Source of the DNA: Parvularculaceae bacterium
GTDB lineage: Bacteria > Pseudomonadota > Alphaproteobacteria > Caulobacterales > Parvularculaceae
DNA length: 64,000 nucleotides
Reading direction: 5' to 3'
Assembly (NCBI GenBank): GCA_013389105.1
Contig: JACADZ010000078.1
Coordinates: forward strand, 62,001-126,000
Below the pieces are notes generated by a model, which saw nothing but the letters and a program-made list of their open reading frames with translations, was not told the origin of the DNA and did no database searches. Of the stretch, positions 14,972 through 63,697 are shown piece after piece (position 1 is the stretch's first letter; the number at the start of each line of letters is the position of its first letter). The position numbers and the translations under genes were made by a program.

Positions 14972-15301
14972 TCAGGCTCTCGCGAGGCGGTCCGCCATGC
15001 GCGCAACGCGCTCGGCCGCCTCGGCGACGAGCCGCCCGACGCCGCCGACGGTCGCTTCGTCGACGGCGTCGCCGGCGCGCTCAAGCTCCAGCAGTCGTCG
15101 ACGCGAATCGAAAAGTTCGTCGCAGAGCTGTAGCGCCGCAAGAAGCACGAGCCGTGTCTCGCCGATGTCGCCGAGCTCTCCTGAGAGAGCCCTCACCTGA
15201 CCGTCGAAATAGGCGGCAAGCTGGGTCAGGCGGTCCTCCTGTCCGTTTTCGCAGGCGACCTTGTAAAGGCGGCCGTTCACGACGACGTCGACCTGGGCCA
15301 T
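14972..15301 (-). CDS. zapA: Cell division protein ZapA
   Basis: A 109-residue FtsZ-ring stabiliser. MAQVDVVVNGRLYKVACENGQ and RLTQLAAYFDGQVRAL are the conserved N-terminal globular part, and the rest is a long helix for dimerisation. It is the second gene of a two-gene minus-strand unit (6 bp after the coiled-coil gene) divergent from tkt, an arrangement common in Alphaproteobacteria. Confidence 0.92.
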   Translation of the reverse strand: MAQVDVVVNGRLYKVACENGQEDRLTQLAAYFDGQVRALSGELGDIGETRLVLLAALQLCDELFDSRRRLLELERAGDAVDEATVGGVGRLVAEAAERVARMADRLARA

Positions 15302-15307
15302 GCGGCG

Positions 15308-15541
15308 CTACTCCTTCACACTCGCAAGGGGTTCATTGAGAATCTTCCTCAAATCGGCGATGGCGGCGGAAAGGTCTTCCGAAGCCTCCGCCGCATGTCG
15401 CCGGGCCGCCCGCGCCTGACGCCGGGCCGCATCGACCGTATCGGCGTGATGGGCGAGGTCGGCCAGTCGGTCGGCCAGCCTTTCATCCAGCGCATCGAGC
15501 GCTTCCTTCAGAGCCGCCACCGCCTGTCCGAGATCGGCCAT
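15308..15541 (-). CDS. Short coiled-coil protein, DUF4164-like
   Basis: A 77-residue, almost wholly helical protein: LGQAVAALKEALDALDERL gives clear heptads, followed by an Ala/Arg/His-rich helix and SAAIADLRKILNEPL. It precedes zapA with a 6-bp gap, which suggests a partner role in cell division. The only in-frame ATG is at 15541. The DUF4164 assignment rests on position and composition more than on sharp motifs. The 185 bp upstream to tkt hold the divergent promoters and no other gene. Confidence 0.65.
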   Translation of the reverse strand: MADLGQAVAALKEALDALDERLADRLADLAHHADTVDAARRQARAARRHAAEASEDLSAAIADLRKILNEPLASVKE

Positions 15542-15726
15542 TGCCGTTGCCGGGCGCCTTTTGCTGCCTTGGGGCAGTCTGATGAGCGTCGTCGGCCCTG
15601 TCCAGCCGATGTCGAATCCGCCGCAACGACTTCGACCTGCCCCACCCTTGACCCCCATGGGTCGGATGGGCATGAAACGCGCGGCTTTGCGATCAAGCTC
15701 TAGCCGTCCAATCGGGACCCCCTGCG

Positions 15727-17709
15727 ATGTCAGACGCCGTCCGCGGCGCCTCTTTTCCGGATATGGCGAACGCCATTCGCGCGCTCTCGATGGACGCAGT
15801 CGAAACGGCGAAATCGGGCCATCCCGGCATGCCCATGGGCATGGCCGATGTCGCGACAGTCCTGTTCACCCGATTTCTGAGATTTGACGCAACCGCCCCG
15901 CGCTGGCCCGACCGAGACCGCTTCGTCCTCTCGGCCGGCCACGGCTCCATGCTGCTCTACGCCCTCGCCTATCTCCTCGGTTACGAGGACGCGACCATCG
16001 AGGAGATCAAGCGGTTCCGCCAGCTCGGCAGCCGCACGGCCGGCCATCCTGAGTATGGCCACATCTCGATCGCCGAAACCACCACGGGCCCCCTTGGCCA
16101 GGGCATTGGCAACGCGGTCGGCATGGCGATGGCCGAAGCCCACCTCGCCGCGCGTTTCGGTTCTGATCTCGTCGATCACCACACCTACGTTATCGCCGGC
16201 GACGGCTGCCTGATGGAGGGCGTCTCCCAGGAGGCGATCGCGCTGGCGGGTCACCTTAAGCTTCGTAAGCTCATCGTTCTTTTCGACGACAACGAGATCT
16301 CGATCGACGGACCGGTCTCGCTCGCCGATTCGACGAATCAGCTCTTGCGCTTCGACGCGTCAGGCTGGGCGACGACGCGGGTCGACGGTCACGACCCGAA
16401 CGCGGTCGCCGAGGCGATCGACGCCGCAAGAGCGTCCGACCGGCCGAGCCTCATCGCCTGCCGGACCGTCATTGGCCGCGGCGCCCCGACCAAGGCCGGG
16501 ACGGCGGCGACCCACGGCTCCCCGCTTGGCGCTGATGAAGTGGCGGGCGCTCGCAAGCTCCTCGACTGGCCGCACGCGCCTTTCGTCGTTCCCGAACCGA
16601 TCCTCGCCGCGTGGCGCCAGGCGGGCTCCAGGGGCGTCCCGGCACGCACGGCCTGGGCGGCGCGCCTTGCCGCTTCGCCGAAAGAGGCGGAGTTCGCCAA
16701 GGCGATCTCGGGTGACTGCGCCGAAACGGCGAACGCCGCCGTGCGCAGACTTTCCGCCTCGCTCGTCGCGGCCCCGCAAAAGGTCGCGACCCGCAAGGCA
16801 TCGGAACTGGCGCTCGAGAGTCTCAACGCGGCGATACCCGAGACAATCGGCGGCTCGGCGGACCTGACCGGCTCGAACAATACGCGGACCAAGGGCCTCG
16901 AGACTTTCACGGCCGGCGCCTATGGCGGCCGTTACGTCTATTACGGCGTCCGCGAACACGGCATGGCTGCGGCGATGAACGGCATGGCCCTGCACGGCGG
17001 CGTCATCCCCTATGGCGGCACGTTCCTAGCCTTCGCGGATTACTGCCGGCCGGCGATCCGGCTCGCCGCGCTCATGGGCATACGGACGATCTTCGTCATG
17101 ACGCATGACTCGATCGGCCTCGGCGAGGACGGTCCGACGCATCAGCCGGTCGAACACCTTGCGTCCCTGCGCGCGATCCCGAACCTCAAGGTTTACAGGC
17201 CGGCTGACGCCGTCGAAACAGCCGAGTGCTGGGCGCTCGCGCTCGGAGACAGAGCCGGCCCGAGCGTCATCGCCCTTACCCGGCAGACTCTCGCCCCGGC
17301 TCGGCTAGCCGTTTCGGATGAAAACATGTGCGCCAGAGGCGCTTACATCATCGCCGACGCGCCAGACCCGCACGTCGTCCTGATCGCGACCGGCTCGGAA
17401 GTTGAAATTGCGCTTGAGGCGCAGAAGAAGCTCGCCTGCGACAAGGTTCGGGCCCGCGTCGTTTCGGCCCCGTGCTTTGAACTCTTCGAGGCGCAGCCGC
17501 ATGACTATCGCAGAAAGCTTCTGGGAAAAGCGCCGCGGGTCGGAGTCGAAGCCGCGATTCGTCAGGGCTGGGACGTTTTGCTGCGGCGGCGCGACGCATT
17601 TGTGGGCATGACCTCGTTCGGCGCCTCGGCGCCGGCCGGAGATCTGTACGCGCATTTCGGCATTACGGCGGACAGGGTCGCCGAAGCCGCCAAGGCGAGG
17701 CTCAAGTAG
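15727..17709 (+). CDS. tkt: Transketolase
   Basis: A 660-residue thiamine diphosphate enzyme that moves two-carbon units between sugar phosphates in the pentose phosphate pathway. The TPP motif is [13 protein letters not shown] near residue 158, preceded by [17 protein letters not shown]. The Pyr domain has [16 protein letters not shown] and [17 protein letters not shown]. It is first in a plus-strand run tkt-gap-pgk-fba and its stop overlaps the ribosome-binding site of gap (TAGGAGG). Confidence 0.97.
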
Positions 17710-56636: not shown

Positions 56637-56860
56637 CGATGACGCTTGCGCGAGCGCCGGGGCGGGCGCGCTTTCGCCCGGCGGCGCCGAAAAGTTCTTG
56701 CGCGCCGCGCCTTGAGGGGGCCTGAAGGCCGATTTTCAGGGGTTTTTTGAGGGCTTGGCGACGAAAAAGGCTGAAAAATCGCTGAAAAAGCCTTGCATCG
56801 TGGCGGAATCAGACGATGGTGCGGCCACAGGTTTTCCCTGTACTGCAAAGGAAAATATCG

Positions 56861-57229
56861 ATGGCAACCAAGAAAATGACCCCGCCGAAAAAAGCCGCGC
56901 CCGCCAAAAAAGCGGCCGCGCCGAAGGCCGCCGCCGGCAAGAAGCCTGCTCCCGCGATCATGACGCTGAAGCATTTTGCGGCCGATCTTTCCGGCTCGCA
57001 CAACATGTCCAAGAAGGACATGGAGACGGTGCTGAACGATTTCGTGACGCAGATCGGCAAGACGTTGAAGCGCGGCGGGAAGATCCGCATCACCGGACTC
57101 GGCATTCTGCAGGTCCGCCACCGCGCCGCCCGCATGGGCCGCAACCCGGCGACCGGCGAAGCGATCAAGATCAAGGCCTCGAAGAAGATCGCCTTCCGCC
57201 CGGCGAAGGATCTGAAAGAGTCGATCTAG
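56861..57229 (+). CDS. HU family DNA-binding protein with Lys/Ala-rich N-terminal tail
   Basis: A 122-residue nucleoid protein. Residues 1-32 are a Lys/Ala/Pro tail (KKAAPAKKAAAPKAAAGKK), similar to eukaryotic H1-like tails found on some alphaproteobacterial HU proteins. The HU core has MSKKDMETVLNDFVTQIG, GKIRITGLGILQVRHRA and the DNA-binding arm MGRNPATGEAIKIKASKKIA. AAAGGA sits ahead of ATG 56861. It ends with a strong terminator. Confidence 0.92.
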   Translation: MATKKMTPPKKAAPAKKAAAPKAAAGKKPAPAIMTLKHFAADLSGSHNMSKKDMETVLNDFVTQIGKTLKRGGKIRITGLGILQVRHRAARMGRNPATGEAIKIKASKKIAFRPAKDLKESI

Positions 57230-57255: not shown

Positions 57256-57284
57256 GCGGCGCCCACGGGCGCCGCTTTTGTTTT
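57256..57284 (+). terminator. Rho-independent terminator of the HU gene
   Basis: GCGGCGCCC (57256-57264), AC, GGGCGCCGC (57267-57275) is a perfect stem followed by TTTTGTTTT. It begins 27 bp after the HU stop. Confidence 0.85.
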
Positions 57285-57307
57285 GGCCGCGCAGGCCCGC
57301 CGGCCGG

Positions 57308-58336
57308 CTACTCCGCTTTCGCCCTGAACGTCGCGAGCACAGGCTGATGATCCGTATACTGGAAATCGAGATCGACAGCCTCGACCCGATCGGCCTCGAC
57401 ATTCGGCGAAATGACGAAGCCGTCGACGACGGTGGTGAAGTTCTCGCCCTTCGCGTAAGGACGCTCATTGGTCCGGCAGGTCGGAACAGCCGCATCGTAG
57501 ACGGCGCGCCAGCCCTCGCCCAGTTCATCGCGCGGGAACGGGTGCAGCCAGAACAGGAACTCCTCGGTCGTCGTGGTCGGACGTCCCGGATTGACGAATT
57601 CGTAGTTCCAGTCGCCGCCCACGATCACGCGCGCGCCGCGCGCATATTCGGCCTCCGCCAGGCGCAGGACCTCGCGCATCTGTTCAAGGCGCGTGTTCGC
57701 GCCCTCGTCGAAAGCCGACAGGTGAACGTTGAAAAGGACCCAGTCCGGCCCTGCGTCATCGGTAGGCACACGGATGATCTGCACATGATAGCGCCGCTTG
57801 ATCAGCCCGAGCATGTGTCCGGGTTCGCGCGGGAGCGCATGGAGTTCGCGCCGCACGCCGCCCCAGCCGATCGAGGCGAAGAGGCCGTTTTCGAGCGCGA
57901 GCGGGGGCGGCAGCAGCGTCGCGACGATGTCGCCGGAGAAGGCGTTGTCGCGGCCGGCGAGCGCCCCGGCGACCGCGCCGAGCGTATCGACGCCGCGCGT
58001 GAGGACGCTCGCCCGCGCGGTCTCCTGCATGAGGATCGCGTCAGGCCGGCGCCGGTTCAGCTCTGCGACGATCCCGGCGCCGTTCTTTTCAACCGCGGCG
58101 CGGCTCGGCGGAACGAGGCTTTTGCCGCCGTCCGAAGCGAAATCGGATTCGGCCCCGAGGCCGCCATAGCCGATGTTCCAGATCATCACGTCGAGCGAAT
58201 CGCCGGGAAAGGCGGGCAAGGCCGCCGGAGGGCCGACCGCCGTCAGCTCCGCGGGCGCGCCCCGGCGGTTGACGAAAACCACGGCCGCCGCATAGGCGGC
58301 GAGCGCGAGGAGCAAAGCGAGCAGCAGCCGTTTCAC
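57308..58336 (-). CDS. Endonuclease/exonuclease/phosphatase family protein
   Basis: A 342-residue protein anchored or secreted by an N-terminal hydrophobic segment (RLLLALLLALAAYAAAVVFV). The EEP catalytic set is visible: MIWNIGYGG, ILMQETARA (Glu ligand), LFNVHLSAFDEG, VIVGGDWNYEF, VDGFVISPNVEA and YTDHQPVLATF. Members cleave phosphodiester bonds in nucleic acids, lipids or inositol phosphates; envelope location favours a lipid or extracellular DNA. It starts with GTG. Confidence 0.85.
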   Translation of the reverse strand: MKRLLLALLLALAAYAAAVVFVNRRGAPAELTAVGPPAALPAFPGDSLDVMIWNIGYGGLGAESDFASDGGKSLVPPSRAAVEKNGAGIVAELNRRRPDAILMQETARASVLTRGVDTLGAVAGALAGRDNAFSGDIVATLLPPPLALENGLFASIGWGGVRRELHALPREPGHMLGLIKRRYHVQIIRVPTDDAGPDWVLFNVHLSAFDEGANTRLEQMREVLRLAEAEYARGARVIVGGDWNYEFVNPGRPTTTTEEFLFWLHPFPRDELGEGWRAVYDAAVPTCRTNERPYAKGENFTTVVDGFVISPNVEADRVEAVDLDFQYTDHQPVLATFRAKAE

Positions 58337-58432
58337 GCCCTGGACCCGAGGGACTTGCCGGAACGAGCCTACGCCGGTCGGCGGCGGCGCGAAACGCTTT
58401 TGTTTAGGCGTATACAGACGACTTCGCCGACA

Positions 58433-58774
58433 TCAATCGGAAAGAAAATTGCGGCCGAGACGATCCTCTATCTCAACGATCCACAGGTCGCGGTCGAACC
58501 GACGCTCCTTGTCGAGCAGCGCGTCAATCTTCCCCTCCGGCGCCGCGCCCGGGAACGGTTCGCGCCAAGCCGGCGCGCCGGTCTCGTCGAGACCCTGCAG
58601 GAAAAGGCGGGCCATGGGCGCGCCGTCGATGCGGCCGAGAAACACCTTGACCGCGACCGCGCCTGCGTCGGCGTCGCCTTTGCGGACGATCTGCGCCGGC
58701 GCGCCCGCGATCTCGGCGCGCCTCAGGAGCGCGGCGACGAGGATATGCGACTTCAGCCGGGGCGGGCGGTCCAT
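58433..58774 (-). CDS. DUF1491 family protein
   Basis: A 113-residue cytoplasmic protein of DUF1491. PPRLKSHILVAALLRRAEIA, VRKGDADAGAVAVKVFLGR and ALLDKERRFDRDLWIVEIED follow the family pattern, largely restricted to Alphaproteobacteria. Function unknown. It lies 97 bp upstream of the EEP gene on the same strand. Confidence 0.88.
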   Translation of the reverse strand: MDRPPRLKSHILVAALLRRAEIAGAPAQIVRKGDADAGAVAVKVFLGRIDGAPMARLFLQGLDETGAPAWREPFPGAAPEGKIDALLDKERRFDRDLWIVEIEDRLGRNFLSD

Positions 58775-58859
58775 ACCGACACTCTAGAGGCGAGGGGCAG
58801 GTTGGGCCATCGCCGCCGGCGGCGGCATGAGGGCGGGCGCGCGAACGATCAACGGGGGT

Positions 58860-60050
58860 TCAGGCGGCGGATCGGGAGCGTTCTCGTCGATAGGCCTCGA
58901 CCCGCTCGAGCTGACTGAGGATTGCGGGCGCGGCCGCGTCGGCGCGCGCGGACTCAACGACCGATCTGAGGCGCCGCTCGGGTCGCGCCGGCTTCACGAT
59001 CGGCAGCCGGGCTTCGGCGCGCACGCCCTCGCCCGGAGCGCTCTGAAGCGCCAGGCGCCCGCCGTGAAGTTCCACCAGCGCATTTGCGACGGCGAGCCCC
59101 AGGCCCGTGCCCTTGGCGCCGCGAACGCCGTCTGCGCCTTTGGCGAAGCGCGCTCCAAGCTTTTTGAGATCCTCCGGCCCCATGCCCACTCCGGTGTCGG
59201 CGACGACAAGCAAGAGTTCCTCGCCTTCGGCGCGGACATCGATGCTCACCTCGCCGTCGCTGGTGAATTTGACGGCGTTGGCGAGGAGATTGATGAGGAT
59301 CTGGCGAACCGCCCGCGGATCAAGCGCGACGTCGGGGAGAGGTTCGCCGACCTTGACGGCGATCTTCAGGCCGGCTTTCTCCGCGTCGATGCGCATCAGC
59401 GCCGCGCATTCGCGGGCGAGCGCGCCGACATCGACGGTCTCGCGCTTCAAGGCGTAGCGGCCGGCCTAGAGGCGGGCGTGATCGAGCATCAGGTTCACAA
59501 GATCGAGGAGGTGCCGGCCAGAGGCGCGGATGATGTCGGCATACTCCGCGTATTTCGGGTGGCCGAGCGGGCCGTAGGTCTCGCCGATCATGGCGTCGGC
59601 GAAGCCGATGACGGCGTTCAGCGGCGTGCGCATCTCGTGGCTGAGATCGGCGACGTCGGCGGCGGTCGCGGGCGGGGCCGGTTCGCCCGCCGCCTCCGCC
59701 GCGGCGACGGCGAGCATCAGGACCGGCGTCCGCTTGCGGGTGCGGCGGCCGAAACGCAGCTCGAGCGCGCCGCCGGCTTCAAGTTCGATGCGGGCCGGCC
59801 CAGCCGCCGGACCCAGCGAGAGTCCCCGCTCCACGCGCGCGCGATCGGCGGGGCGGAACAGCGAGACGATCTCGCGGTCGATTATGTCCAGGCGCCCCAT
59901 CTTGAGGAGGCCGGGAGCCTCGTCCGAGAGACCTCGGATGCGTCCCCGGTCATCGACCAAGAGCACGCCCGAACCGGCGCCGCCCTCCCAGACCGCGCCC
60001 TTGGCGGCGCCGTCGGCGTCGAGCAGTTGCGAAAAAAGGGTTGCGGGCAT
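58860..60050 (-). pseudogene. Sensor histidine kinase interrupted by one in-frame amber codon
   Basis: From ATG 60050 the frame encodes a PAS-like region (GVLLVDDRGRIRGLSDEAPG), then the DHp phospho-acceptor helix DLSHEMRTPLNAVIGF, up to LDHARL, where TAG occurs at 59468-59466 (codon 195). The same frame resumes with AGRYA and a complete ATPase domain: N-box NLLANAVKFT, VADTGVGMGPEDLKK, GTGLGLAVANAL. A Glu or Gln is the expected residue (RLEAGRY), one base from TAG. A TTG at 59450 could restart the ATPase half. No response regulator is adjacent. It is either a recent pseudogene, a split kinase or a sequence error. Confidence 0.8.
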
Positions 60051-60303
60051 CGTCCTAACCAACCGGGAAGAGATGTTAACGCATCCTGATCCTATGGCTC
60101 TCCATCGTTAACAAACGTTGAATGGGGTCCCCGCGGGACCGCGATCGCTTCGGCGGCGGTCAAGGCGTCCGGCTTTCAAACGGCTCAAATTTCGCATTTG
60201 ACTCGAATGCCGGATGTATGGCCAAGCTCGCCTTAGCTGGGGTCATGTAGCGTCGCCGGTCTGACGCCTGTAGGGGCGCGTTGAGATAACGGAGAACTTG
60301 CTC

Positions 60304-61320
60304 ATGTTGCGTCTGGATTCGGCCGCGCCTCACGCCGGCCGCAAGGGGGAAGCGCGCTCCCTAGCCAAGCCCGCTCTGATCGCGGCCGCGGCCGTCACGC
60401 TCGCCCTGACGAACGCCGTCTGCGCCGAATCCCTCGCCCAACCAAGCGACGATTCCCTTCAACGTCGGGCCGCCGGTTACATCGCCTTTCGTGAGGACGT
60501 GGCGGCGATCGAGGCGAAGCCGTTCACCAGCGCGGAAGTGACCCGCGAGGCCCATCGTCGCCTGTCGACTCATGACGCGAGGGCCCTCTCTTCGGGCTGG
60601 GTCGCCTACGCCGCCCTGGTCGCCGCCGACACGCCTTCTTTCCGCGACGCCATCGGCGACGAGATCAAGGGCGCCAAGTTCAACGGGCTCAAGGGCCGCG
60701 ACGCGCTGTTCGCGCAAATGGCGCAGGACCCTTATTACGTGCGCCGTCTCAAGGGCGTGCAGGAGGCCGTCGACAAGGTGATGGCGATGACCGCGGCGGA
60801 TGCGGCGCGCTTTTCCGCCCTTGGCGAGGCCTTCAAGGCGCAGGCCTACGCCATGCAGAAAACCAAGTGGGGCGTTGCGAAGCTGTCCCCGCCGCCGGCC
60901 CGCCTCGAGGACGCCGACGCTTACGGGGCCAGCCGCGGCGCGACCTCGTCCGATCTCCCGGCGACGACCGACAAGGGCGTCACGCAACCCATGCTCGCGA
61001 ACGCCTCCGGGGCCTGGTCGCCCGACTGGGGCAAAAGCTCCCCAGGCCGCGTCAACGGCGAGAACGCCGAAGTCATCATGACGCGCGTGCTCAATCTCGC
61101 CGCCCGTTATTCCGCCGACGGCATGAATGGCAAGCTCGTCGACGTCTATGCGAAGAACGACCGCTCTGACAGCTGCCTCTCCATGGCGCGACTGACCTTG
61201 CGCCAGTGCATCGCGGCGACGCGAGCGCCCTATGAGGAGGCCTTCTGCATCGGCGAGCACGCGCTGAACGACGTTTCCGCGTGCCTCGGCTGGGTCGCGA
61301 GCGCCGGCGGCGGGAGCTGA
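60304..61320 (+). CDS. Secreted protein of unknown function, 338 residues
   Basis: A signal-anchor or signal peptide lies at residues ~24-42 (KPALIAAAAVTLALTNAVCA). The mature part is helical: YIAFREDVAAIEAKPFTSAE, LSTHDARALSSGWVAYAAL, YYVRRLKGVQEAVDKVMAM. The C-terminal 60 residues have four cysteines (in DSCLSM, RQCIAA, FCIGEH and SACLGW), likely two disulfides. GGAG nine bases ahead supports ATG 60304. It ends with a clear terminator. I recognise no named family; similar proteins occur in related marine Alphaproteobacteria by general impression only. The 253 bp upstream, divergent from the kinase, show only a short GGTCCC/GGGACC stem. Confidence 0.75.
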   Translation: MLRLDSAAPHAGRKGEARSLAKPALIAAAAVTLALTNAVCAESLAQPSDDSLQRRAAGYIAFREDVAAIEAKPFTSAEVTREAHRRLSTHDARALSSGWVAYAALVAADTPSFRDAIGDEIKGAKFNGLKGRDALFAQMAQDPYYVRRLKGVQEAVDKVMAMTAADAARFSALGEAFKAQAYAMQKTKWGVAKLSPPPARLEDADAYGASRGATSSDLPATTDKGVTQPMLANASGAWSPDWGKSSPGRVNGENAEVIMTRVLNLAARYSADGMNGKLVDVYAKNDRSDSCLSMARLTLRQCIAATRAPYEEAFCIGEHALNDVSACLGWVASAGGGS

Positions 61321-61716: not shown

Positions 61717-62502
61717 TCAAAGCCGGCGATAGGCGCCGGCGTCGGCGCGGAACTGCACGAGATCGCCGACGCGCACCAGCTCGCCTTCGGCCTCGACCGG
61801 GTCGGCGACGAAAGGAAGGATCGACTCGCCGAGCGCGCCGCCCTTCGCGTCGGTCATGAGGAGAACGGCTTCGCGACCGTCGGCGCCCCGCGCCCAGAAG
61901 GACGGCGGTATCCCGCCGCGGATGCACAGCGACGCGCACGCCTTGTGCGTCCGGCCGCGCGACGGCCGCATGACGCCGAAGAAGCACTTGCTGTCCATGA
62001 TCTGGCCCGAGAGCCGCGCGCGCCCGAGCGGCTCAGGCAGGAGGGGCGGCAATTTCACCCCCTCAGCCGAGGGCGCGATCCAGTCTTCGAGCGCGAGCGG
62101 CACTTCGAGCATCTGGCGGTTCCCCCGCTCGATCAGCACGCCCGACGCCCTAAAGGCTCGGCCGTCCTTGGCGGCGAGATCGAGCGAGCTCGTGCATTTG
62201 CCCTGCGCGACGACGAGCACGGTGCGGACGTCAAAGGGCGAGGCGGGATCGGCGACGTAAAGCATGGGATAGGGACGCGTCGCGAGGACGCCGGTCACGC
62301 GATGGACGGCGCCGGTTTTCCAGGCGCCGGCGCCGGGCGGGCCAAGACCTTGCGCCGACAGAAACCCGAGGCCCGCGGCGCCGGCGAGCGCGAAGGGAAG
62401 ACTCCCAAGGATAAAGCGGCGGTCGGCGACCGGCGCCCTCGCCCAGCCGATGAAGAAATCCCTGTCGCGGTCGGGCGGGAGGACGCCGCGGTTGAGACTC
62501 AT
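61717..62502 (-). CDS. Membrane-anchored protein with Cys/His motif, partner of the Rieske fusion
   Basis: A 261-residue protein with one N-terminal span (FILGSLPFALAGAAGLGFLS) and a periplasmic-type remainder. Distinctive motifs are VVAQGKCTSSLDLAAKDG and, near the C-terminus, MDSKCFFGVMRPSRGRTHKA followed by CASLCIRGGIPPSFW, giving a C-x13-H-x2-C-x3-C arrangement. This could hold a metal or cofactor. Its ATG overlaps the stop of the upstream Rieske fusion (ATGA), so they are produced together. No family name is known to me. Confidence 0.75.
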   Translation of the reverse strand: MSLNRGVLPPDRDRDFFIGWARAPVADRRFILGSLPFALAGAAGLGFLSAQGLGPPGAGAWKTGAVHRVTGVLATRPYPMLYVADPASPFDVRTVLVVAQGKCTSSLDLAAKDGRAFRASGVLIERGNRQMLEVPLALEDWIAPSAEGVKLPPLLPEPLGRARLSGQIMDSKCFFGVMRPSRGRTHKACASLCIRGGIPPSFWARGADGREAVLLMTDAKGGALGESILPFVADPVEAEGELVRVGDLVQFRADAGAYRRL

Positions 62503-63551
62503 GGCGCGCGCTCCAGCATCGCGAATTTCGCCCGGGCGCCCGGGCGGTTCGGCCGCACGCGGACGAAGACTCGCCCAAGCCCTGAAAGGCGCACGTCATG
62601 AGTGGCGATCTTCTCGGTGAAGGGCGGCGGCGACACGCCGGTCTGGGCCTCATATTGCCAGCCGTGCCACGGGCAGGTGACGCAGCCGTCGACGATCCGG
62701 CCCTCCCCGAGCGGCCCGTTCTGGTGGCGGCAGACATTGGTGACGGCGAGGATTTTCACGCCGTCGCGAAAAACGGCGACGCGCTCGCCGCCCGGAAGCG
62801 GCGCGATGACCGCGCGCTTGTCGGGAATGTCGGCAGGGTCGCACACGTCGATCCAGCCTTCGGGCGCCTTGACGCCGCGCATCGCGCCGTCGCGCCGCCA
62901 TTCACGCAGGCCCGCCACGAGATGCGCGCCGGCCACCAGCGCGAAGGAGCCGAGCGACAGGGCGGGCAGCACGAGGCTGCGCTCGGTCATGAAGAAGCCG
63001 TAGGCGATGTGCGCAAGGAGGAGGGCGTAGGCGGCGTAAACCAGCATATGCAGCGCCTTCCAGACCGGCGCCGAGAGATTATTGAGCCAGTAATCATGGC
63101 TGGTCGCCGCCATTACGAGGAGGATCGCAAGGGCGCCGAGACCGAACATCTCGAAGGGGATCCCGGGCGGTCCGTCATTGGAGACGAAGAGCGAGACAAG
63201 AGGATTGAGCGGCCCCGAGCCGTGATACCAGACAAGCGTCAGCACGGCATGCGCGGCGGCGACGAAGAACGTCATCACTCCGAGATGGCGGCGGTTGTAA
63301 AGCCATGGATTGAAGCGCCGCGAGAGCCGCGCCAGCGGGCCGATCAGGAGGATCGCCGTCAGCATCAGGAAGGCGCAGATGCCAAGGCCGCGGATCAGAA
63401 GAATGACGGGGTCGGCCGCATGCCCCGCCTGCGGCGCCCGCATGCCCGCATAGAGAAAGACGCCGAGAAAGGCGACGACGCACAGCGCCGCATAGATGTC
63501 GTAAAGAATCTTGGCGCCGTTCCAGCCGACGGCCTTGTAGCGATGGCCCAT
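62499..63551 (-). CDS. Ferric-reductase-like membrane domain fused to a Rieske [2Fe-2S] domain
   Basis: A 350-residue protein. Residues ~1-215 contain six to seven spans with haem-type histidines (YNRRHLGVMTFFVAAAHAVL, APVWKALHMLVYAAYALLLA, HIAYGFF), the ferric-reductase/MsrQ-like fold. Residues ~230-350 are a Rieske domain with both ligand pairs, NVCRHQNGPLGEGRIVDGC and CPWHGWQYEAQTG. Electrons could pass between quinone-side haem b and the cluster. The start overlaps the stop of the tiny upstream gene (TAATG). The substrate and partners are unknown. Confidence 0.87.
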   Translation of the reverse strand: MGHRYKAVGWNGAKILYDIYAALCVVAFLGVFLYAGMRAPQAGHAADPVILLIRGLGICAFLMLTAILLIGPLARLSRRFNPWLYNRRHLGVMTFFVAAAHAVLTLVWYHGSGPLNPLVSLFVSNDGPPGIPFEMFGLGALAILLVMAATSHDYWLNNLSAPVWKALHMLVYAAYALLLAHIAYGFFMTERSLVLPALSLGSFALVAGAHLVAGLREWRRDGAMRGVKAPEGWIDVCDPADIPDKRAVIAPLPGGERVAVFRDGVKILAVTNVCRHQNGPLGEGRIVDGCVTCPWHGWQYEAQTGVSPPPFTEKIATHDVRLSGLGRVFVRVRPNRPGARAKFAMLERAP

Positions 63552-63697
63552 TACGGCGACTCCGCGGCGACGGCGGCGGGAAGCTCCGTCAGCGGATCGA
63601 CCGGCCGCGCGCCGATGGCGGCTGCAACGCCGAACGCAACGGCCGCGACGACGCCCGCCCACGCGAGCACATGGAGTCGGCGATGCGCGCCCCTCAT
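63551..63697 (-). CDS. Tiny single-span membrane protein, 48 residues
   Basis: MRGAHRRLHVLAWAGVVAAV and FGVAAAIGARPVD give one positive-inside span followed by a short Pro/Leu/Ala tail. Its ATG overlaps the stop of the upstream 80-residue gene (ATGA) and its TAA overlaps the ATG of the Rieske fusion, so it is a bona fide member of the operon. Probably a small subunit or anchor of the membrane complex, by inference from position. Confidence 0.65.
   Translation of the reverse strand: MRGAHRRLHVLAWAGVVAAVAFGVAAAIGARPVDPLTELPAAVAAESP

Follow-up and report, generated by a model that had tools for sequence, protein, structure and literature searches.

An isolated amber codon at the DHp-CA junction of a DivJ/PdhS-like histidine kinase in a Parvularculaceae draft genome, very probably a nonsense lesion or a base error

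In the window, the stretch of 64,000 nucleotides analyzed here (positions 62001–126000 of contig C25), the frame of a histidine kinase is cut by a single TAG codon, which raises the question whether the enzyme works in two pieces, is read through, has been truncated under selection, or has suffered a lesion or base error. At 94.4% completeness and 3.46% contamination, the genome comprises 3.03 Mb in 234 contigs; it is presumably a metagenome-assembled draft. The preliminary description of an otherwise intact kinase frame split by one amber codon is borne out: the in-frame TAG at 59468–59466 on the minus strand is the sole interruption of a frame otherwise open from 60062 to a TGA ending at 58860, with a HisKA domain before and a HATPase_c domain after it. 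The features concerned are the following.

58433–58774, minus strand: gene directly downstream of the kinase, DUF1491 according to Pfam
58860–59465, minus strand: downstream frame with the HATPase_c (CA) domain, open to the TGA at 58862–58860
59448–59450, minus strand: in-frame TTG, proposed as a restart codon, preceded by a signal of background strength
59466–59468, minus strand: TAG where DHp and CA meet; 30 of the 36 relatives read have Glu here
59466–60050, minus strand: upstream piece of 194 residues, from the presumed ATG at 60050–60048 to the TAG
59616–59642, minus strand: SHEMRTPLN, read from the sequence, which includes the phospho-acceptor His and the H-E-x-x-T motif
60298–61320, plus strand: divergent gene upstream of the kinase, without a match in the Pfam scan

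On the read-through translation, Pfam places HisKA at residues 137–201 and HATPase_c at residues 248–355, so that the upstream piece opens with some 130 residues that Pfam does not match and continues with the HisKA/DHp domain and its H-E-x-x-T motif. Scanned separately, the upstream piece (59469–60050) matches HisKA PF00512 with 49.3 bits against a cut-off of 26.9, and the downstream piece (58863–59450) matches HATPase_c PF02518 with 94.1 bits against a cut-off of 26.4; because each clears its cut-off by itself, the homology of both pieces to kinase domains is far beyond chance. Of the two attributes of a HisKA-type kinase, the HisKA domain with its phospho-acceptor histidine (the H of SHEMRTPLN) is thus present, and the HATPase_c domain lies after the TAG, that is, on the same polypeptide only if this codon is misread, suppressed or an error. 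In alignment with solved structures the stop falls opposite the Glu of ..SKIEAGK.. in 7z8n and opposite a Gly in 6qrj, a position that identifies it as the DHp-CA junction. The boxes mentioned in the preliminary description could be located, and we take the H-box to be at 59642–59616, the N-box at 59300–59265, G1 at 59201–59178 and G2 at 59111–59058.

Neither half lacks more than one conserved column. With a column counted as conserved when 90% or more of the remaining alignment rows agree, the window copy retains 25 of 26 such columns in the DHp domain and 41 of the 42 that follow the stop, the intact relatives keeping 23/26 to 26/26 and 40/44 to 42/42, respectively. Its ratio of branch lengths after and before the stop is 0.47, the seventh lowest of 24, which reveals no additional acceleration of the downstream half among these 24 rows; compared with genomes G005 and G006, changes at codon position 3 exceed those at positions 1 and 2 in DHp and CA alike. 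Because of the retained columns, the branch-length ratio and the third-position excess, we conclude that the downstream half was under constraint until very recently. At 0.587, the terminal branch of the window copy ranks fourth in length among the 24 rows and first among the 8 from the same genus, a possible sign that the kinase gene as a whole is less constrained; the genes neighboring the kinase have also diverged, with just 57–62% identity to their relatives. In G006, relatives of the divergent gene, the kinase and the DUF1491 gene occur in identical order, and in G048 a relative of the divergent gene adjoins the kinase, as judged by eye on the translation.

Two plus-strand frames of 546 and 420 amino acids (57278–58918 and 58827–60089) lie opposite the kinase and its neighbors and are probably shadow frames of a GC-rich genome. 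Elsewhere in the window, a plus-strand region at 15002–15868 shows 35% identity to a G006 frame, but is interrupted by three stops; a short minus-strand frame at the same place also has a G006 counterpart, and for this reason the plus-strand match may be an antisense shadow. The first part of the frame at 62499–63662 resembles the heme subunit MsrQ and its last part Rieske-type ferredoxins, possibly a fusion of a membrane heme reductase with a Rieske domain, and 56816–57229 encodes an HU/IHF-like protein with an N-terminal extension rich in Lys, Ala and Pro.

The kinase belongs to the common stock of the family, an ortholog-like match being found in nearly all of 62 family genomes; the exceptions are a fragment at a contig edge (G001), a gene interrupted by a run of N (G048) and one cut by a contig end (G052), and the ortholog is absent among the matches of G060. 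We fetched 37 relatives for the stop column, 36 of them readable (23 of these in a first alignment) and one left out because of a wrong frame, and found 30 Glu (16 GAG, 14 GAA), 3 Asp, 2 Arg and 1 Lys; neither a stop nor Gln occurs at this column in the 36. Of the two sense codons named in the preliminary description, GAG and CAG, the relatives thus agree with the one for glutamate. The stop had also been called recent or functional: recency agrees with the undecayed downstream half and with the sense codon in every readable relative, whereas a function as a two-piece kinase is unsupported. A comparison with the closest strains had been recommended; the nearest relatives found are other species of the genus, the best at 55–60% identity, and no strains were found among them. 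The best matches of G018, G071, G072 and G074 contain stops, the one in G018 being close to the C-terminus (residue 397 in a read of 423 residues). A protein search of the whole collection returned 9 loci at 26–35% identity and was uninformative for the stop codon.

If the arrangement were a functional two-piece kinase, translation would restart at the TTG 59450 or the ATG 59396, and a putative separate CA protein would phosphorylate the DHp piece. Each piece indeed carries a whole domain, the downstream half is undecayed, and split kinases exist: PMC3591291 documents CheA3/CheA4 as well as EnvZ halves that are active in vitro. Such published examples make a two-piece enzyme possible, not likely. 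The in-frame TTG pointed out earlier is present, separated from the TAG by 15 bases. Predicted pairing with the anti-Shine-Dalgarno sequence amounts to -2.8 kcal/mol for this TTG and -3.0 kcal/mol for the ATG, against a median of -2.1 kcal/mol for random sites, whose best quartile begins at -3.8 kcal/mol. A restart at either codon is thus unsupported by the signals preceding them, in a test that is weak, as the presumed start of the kinase itself (60050) reaches only -3.1 kcal/mol and is equally near background, and of 16 control starts 9 surpass -3.8 kcal/mol and 7 do not (17 were listed, and one was left out as having no start codon). A search for the 16S gene found none, and the same search missed the Caulobacter control. 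Moreover, no relative split at the TAG position was seen among the 62 family genomes matched and the 36 relatives read at the codon. The sole apparent case, G048, was rejected, its run of N with duplicated ends being a scaffold gap, and G052 was set aside as a kinase cut by a contig end. The G048 locus (L093, G048:C34:27000–33000) is noted in its own right as a scaffolding flaw, an N run with duplicated flanks in a kinase ortholog, that mimics a split gene. Taken together, we regard the two-piece kinase as highly improbable.

Amber readthrough or suppression, which would yield some full-length kinase, could account for a single stop within an otherwise conserved frame. In this genome, TAG is an ordinary stop: it ends 5 of 15 genes checked (6 end in TGA and 4 in TAA), so that it is not set aside as in a recoded genome, and a release factor 1 gene (prfA) is present above the cut-off. 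None of the 38 tRNAs found has a CUA anticodon; this set is incomplete, with the tRNAs for Asp and Phe among those missing, and a further tRNA may likewise be absent from the draft. The absence of a stop at this position in the 36 readable relatives also argues against readthrough, which we consider very unlikely.

The remaining question is whether the base itself is sound. Outside the window on the same contig, rpoN (sigma-54) lies in two frames (C25:184203–185647); the genome yields two rpoN matches in all, namely these halves (184203–185027 and 185012–185647), and the gene of G005 is one unbroken frame. This frameshift is either a real loss or a consensus error. Comparison of C25 with the open reading frames from a single contig of G005 and a single contig of G006 gave 54 accepted alignments covering 17143 codons, with an internal stop in one of them, the kinase, at residue 207 of 409, and with a single case of two collinear pieces lying in different frames, rpoN. 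The control contigs showed internal stops in 2/56 (G005) and 3/56 (G006) alignments and no frame pairs; these control stops are found 66–95 residues into the alignment, in at least one case ahead of the gene's own start. Internal stops were found neither in rpoB, two DnaE-type genes and carB nor within the domain in any of the 25 HATPase_c matches of the genome. Since these long conserved genes and domains are uninterrupted, the assembly is free of a general load of errors, which counts against a base error and leaves a recent mutation untouched.

We therefore consider it very probable that the TAG is an isolated nonsense lesion, either a recent mutation in this population or a consensus base error, without selected function, in a family-wide DivJ/PdhS-like cytoplasmic histidine kinase struck once at the DHp-CA junction. 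By our own rough estimate, a real recent mutation comes near to an even chance, and a base error has a substantial chance falling somewhat short of one half. The codon would have arisen by a recent G-to-T type change in a Glu codon, or be a wrong consensus base in a fragmented draft; were the base real, a 194-residue DHp fragment would be made, and since it has no ATPase domain, kinase activity would be lost. The reading is supported by the sense codon in 36/36 relatives, the gene order kept in G006, the lack of decay, the normal use of TAG as a stop, the RF1 gene, the lack of a CUA anticodon among 38 tRNAs, the rpoN frameshift on the contig and the 234-contig draft. Against it stand the location of the stop exactly between domains known to function apart, the fact that loss of the kinase would be unusual because nearly every family member retains the gene, and the control contigs, which are no cleaner for stops (1/54 vs. 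2/56 and 3/56).

If selection had kept the truncation, the DHp-only fragment would act on the cognate response regulator, either as its phosphatase or as a sink for phosphate, a proposal to which we give little credence. The H-E-x-x-T motif is intact; according to PMC3510030, the DHp domain of EnvZ or NtrB alone confers a constitutive phosphatase phenotype in vivo, and in Agrobacterium tumefaciens a kinase-negative, phosphatase-positive PdhS2 complements (PMC7003649). A CA half long unneeded should decay, however, and this one is undecayed, so that any phosphatase-only state must be very young. The corresponding scenario, in which a very young natural nonsense allele has reduced a bifunctional DivJ/PdhS-like kinase to its DHp part, acting as phosphatase or sink, with the ATPase half translated separately or about to decay, is similarly improbable; if true, it would be a split or phosphatase-only kinase caught at birth. 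Given a genuine stop and an active DHp fragment, the case would illustrate the conversion of a kinase/phosphatase into a phosphatase by one base change. For annotation, the preferred reading of an isolated lesion or base error calls for caution: where a draft genome shows a lone stop, the reads should be checked before one infers a two-piece kinase.

Among known systems, the DivJ/PleC/PdhS-type kinases of alphaproteobacteria are close: the best NCBIfam match is DivJ (NF050805, 183.3 bits over residues 130–357), followed by PdhS (NF041593, 135.7 bits), and the conserved His with a Thr four residues on is described for PdhS kinases in PMC7003649; the meaning of H-E-x-x-T is treated there and in PMC3591291. 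The window kinase differs in lying far under both cut-offs (1000 and 2000, respectively), with matches confined to the catalytic core. With the natural split kinases CheA3/CheA4 and Hik36/Hik43 and with HisKA-only proteins (1556 of 42417 HisKA proteins lack HATPase according to PMC3591291; one more split kinase appears in PMC7656254) it shares phospho-acceptor and ATPase parts on separate frames. The known cases are encoded by distinct genes, each with a start of its own, whereas the window kinase is one frame cut at one codon, and its readable relatives are all unbroken at the stop position. From a single-nonsense pseudogene or a draft consensus error we saw no difference, and the case is an ordinary one, sharing with these the one lesion, the lack of decay, the intact relatives and the isolated rpoN lesion on the contig.
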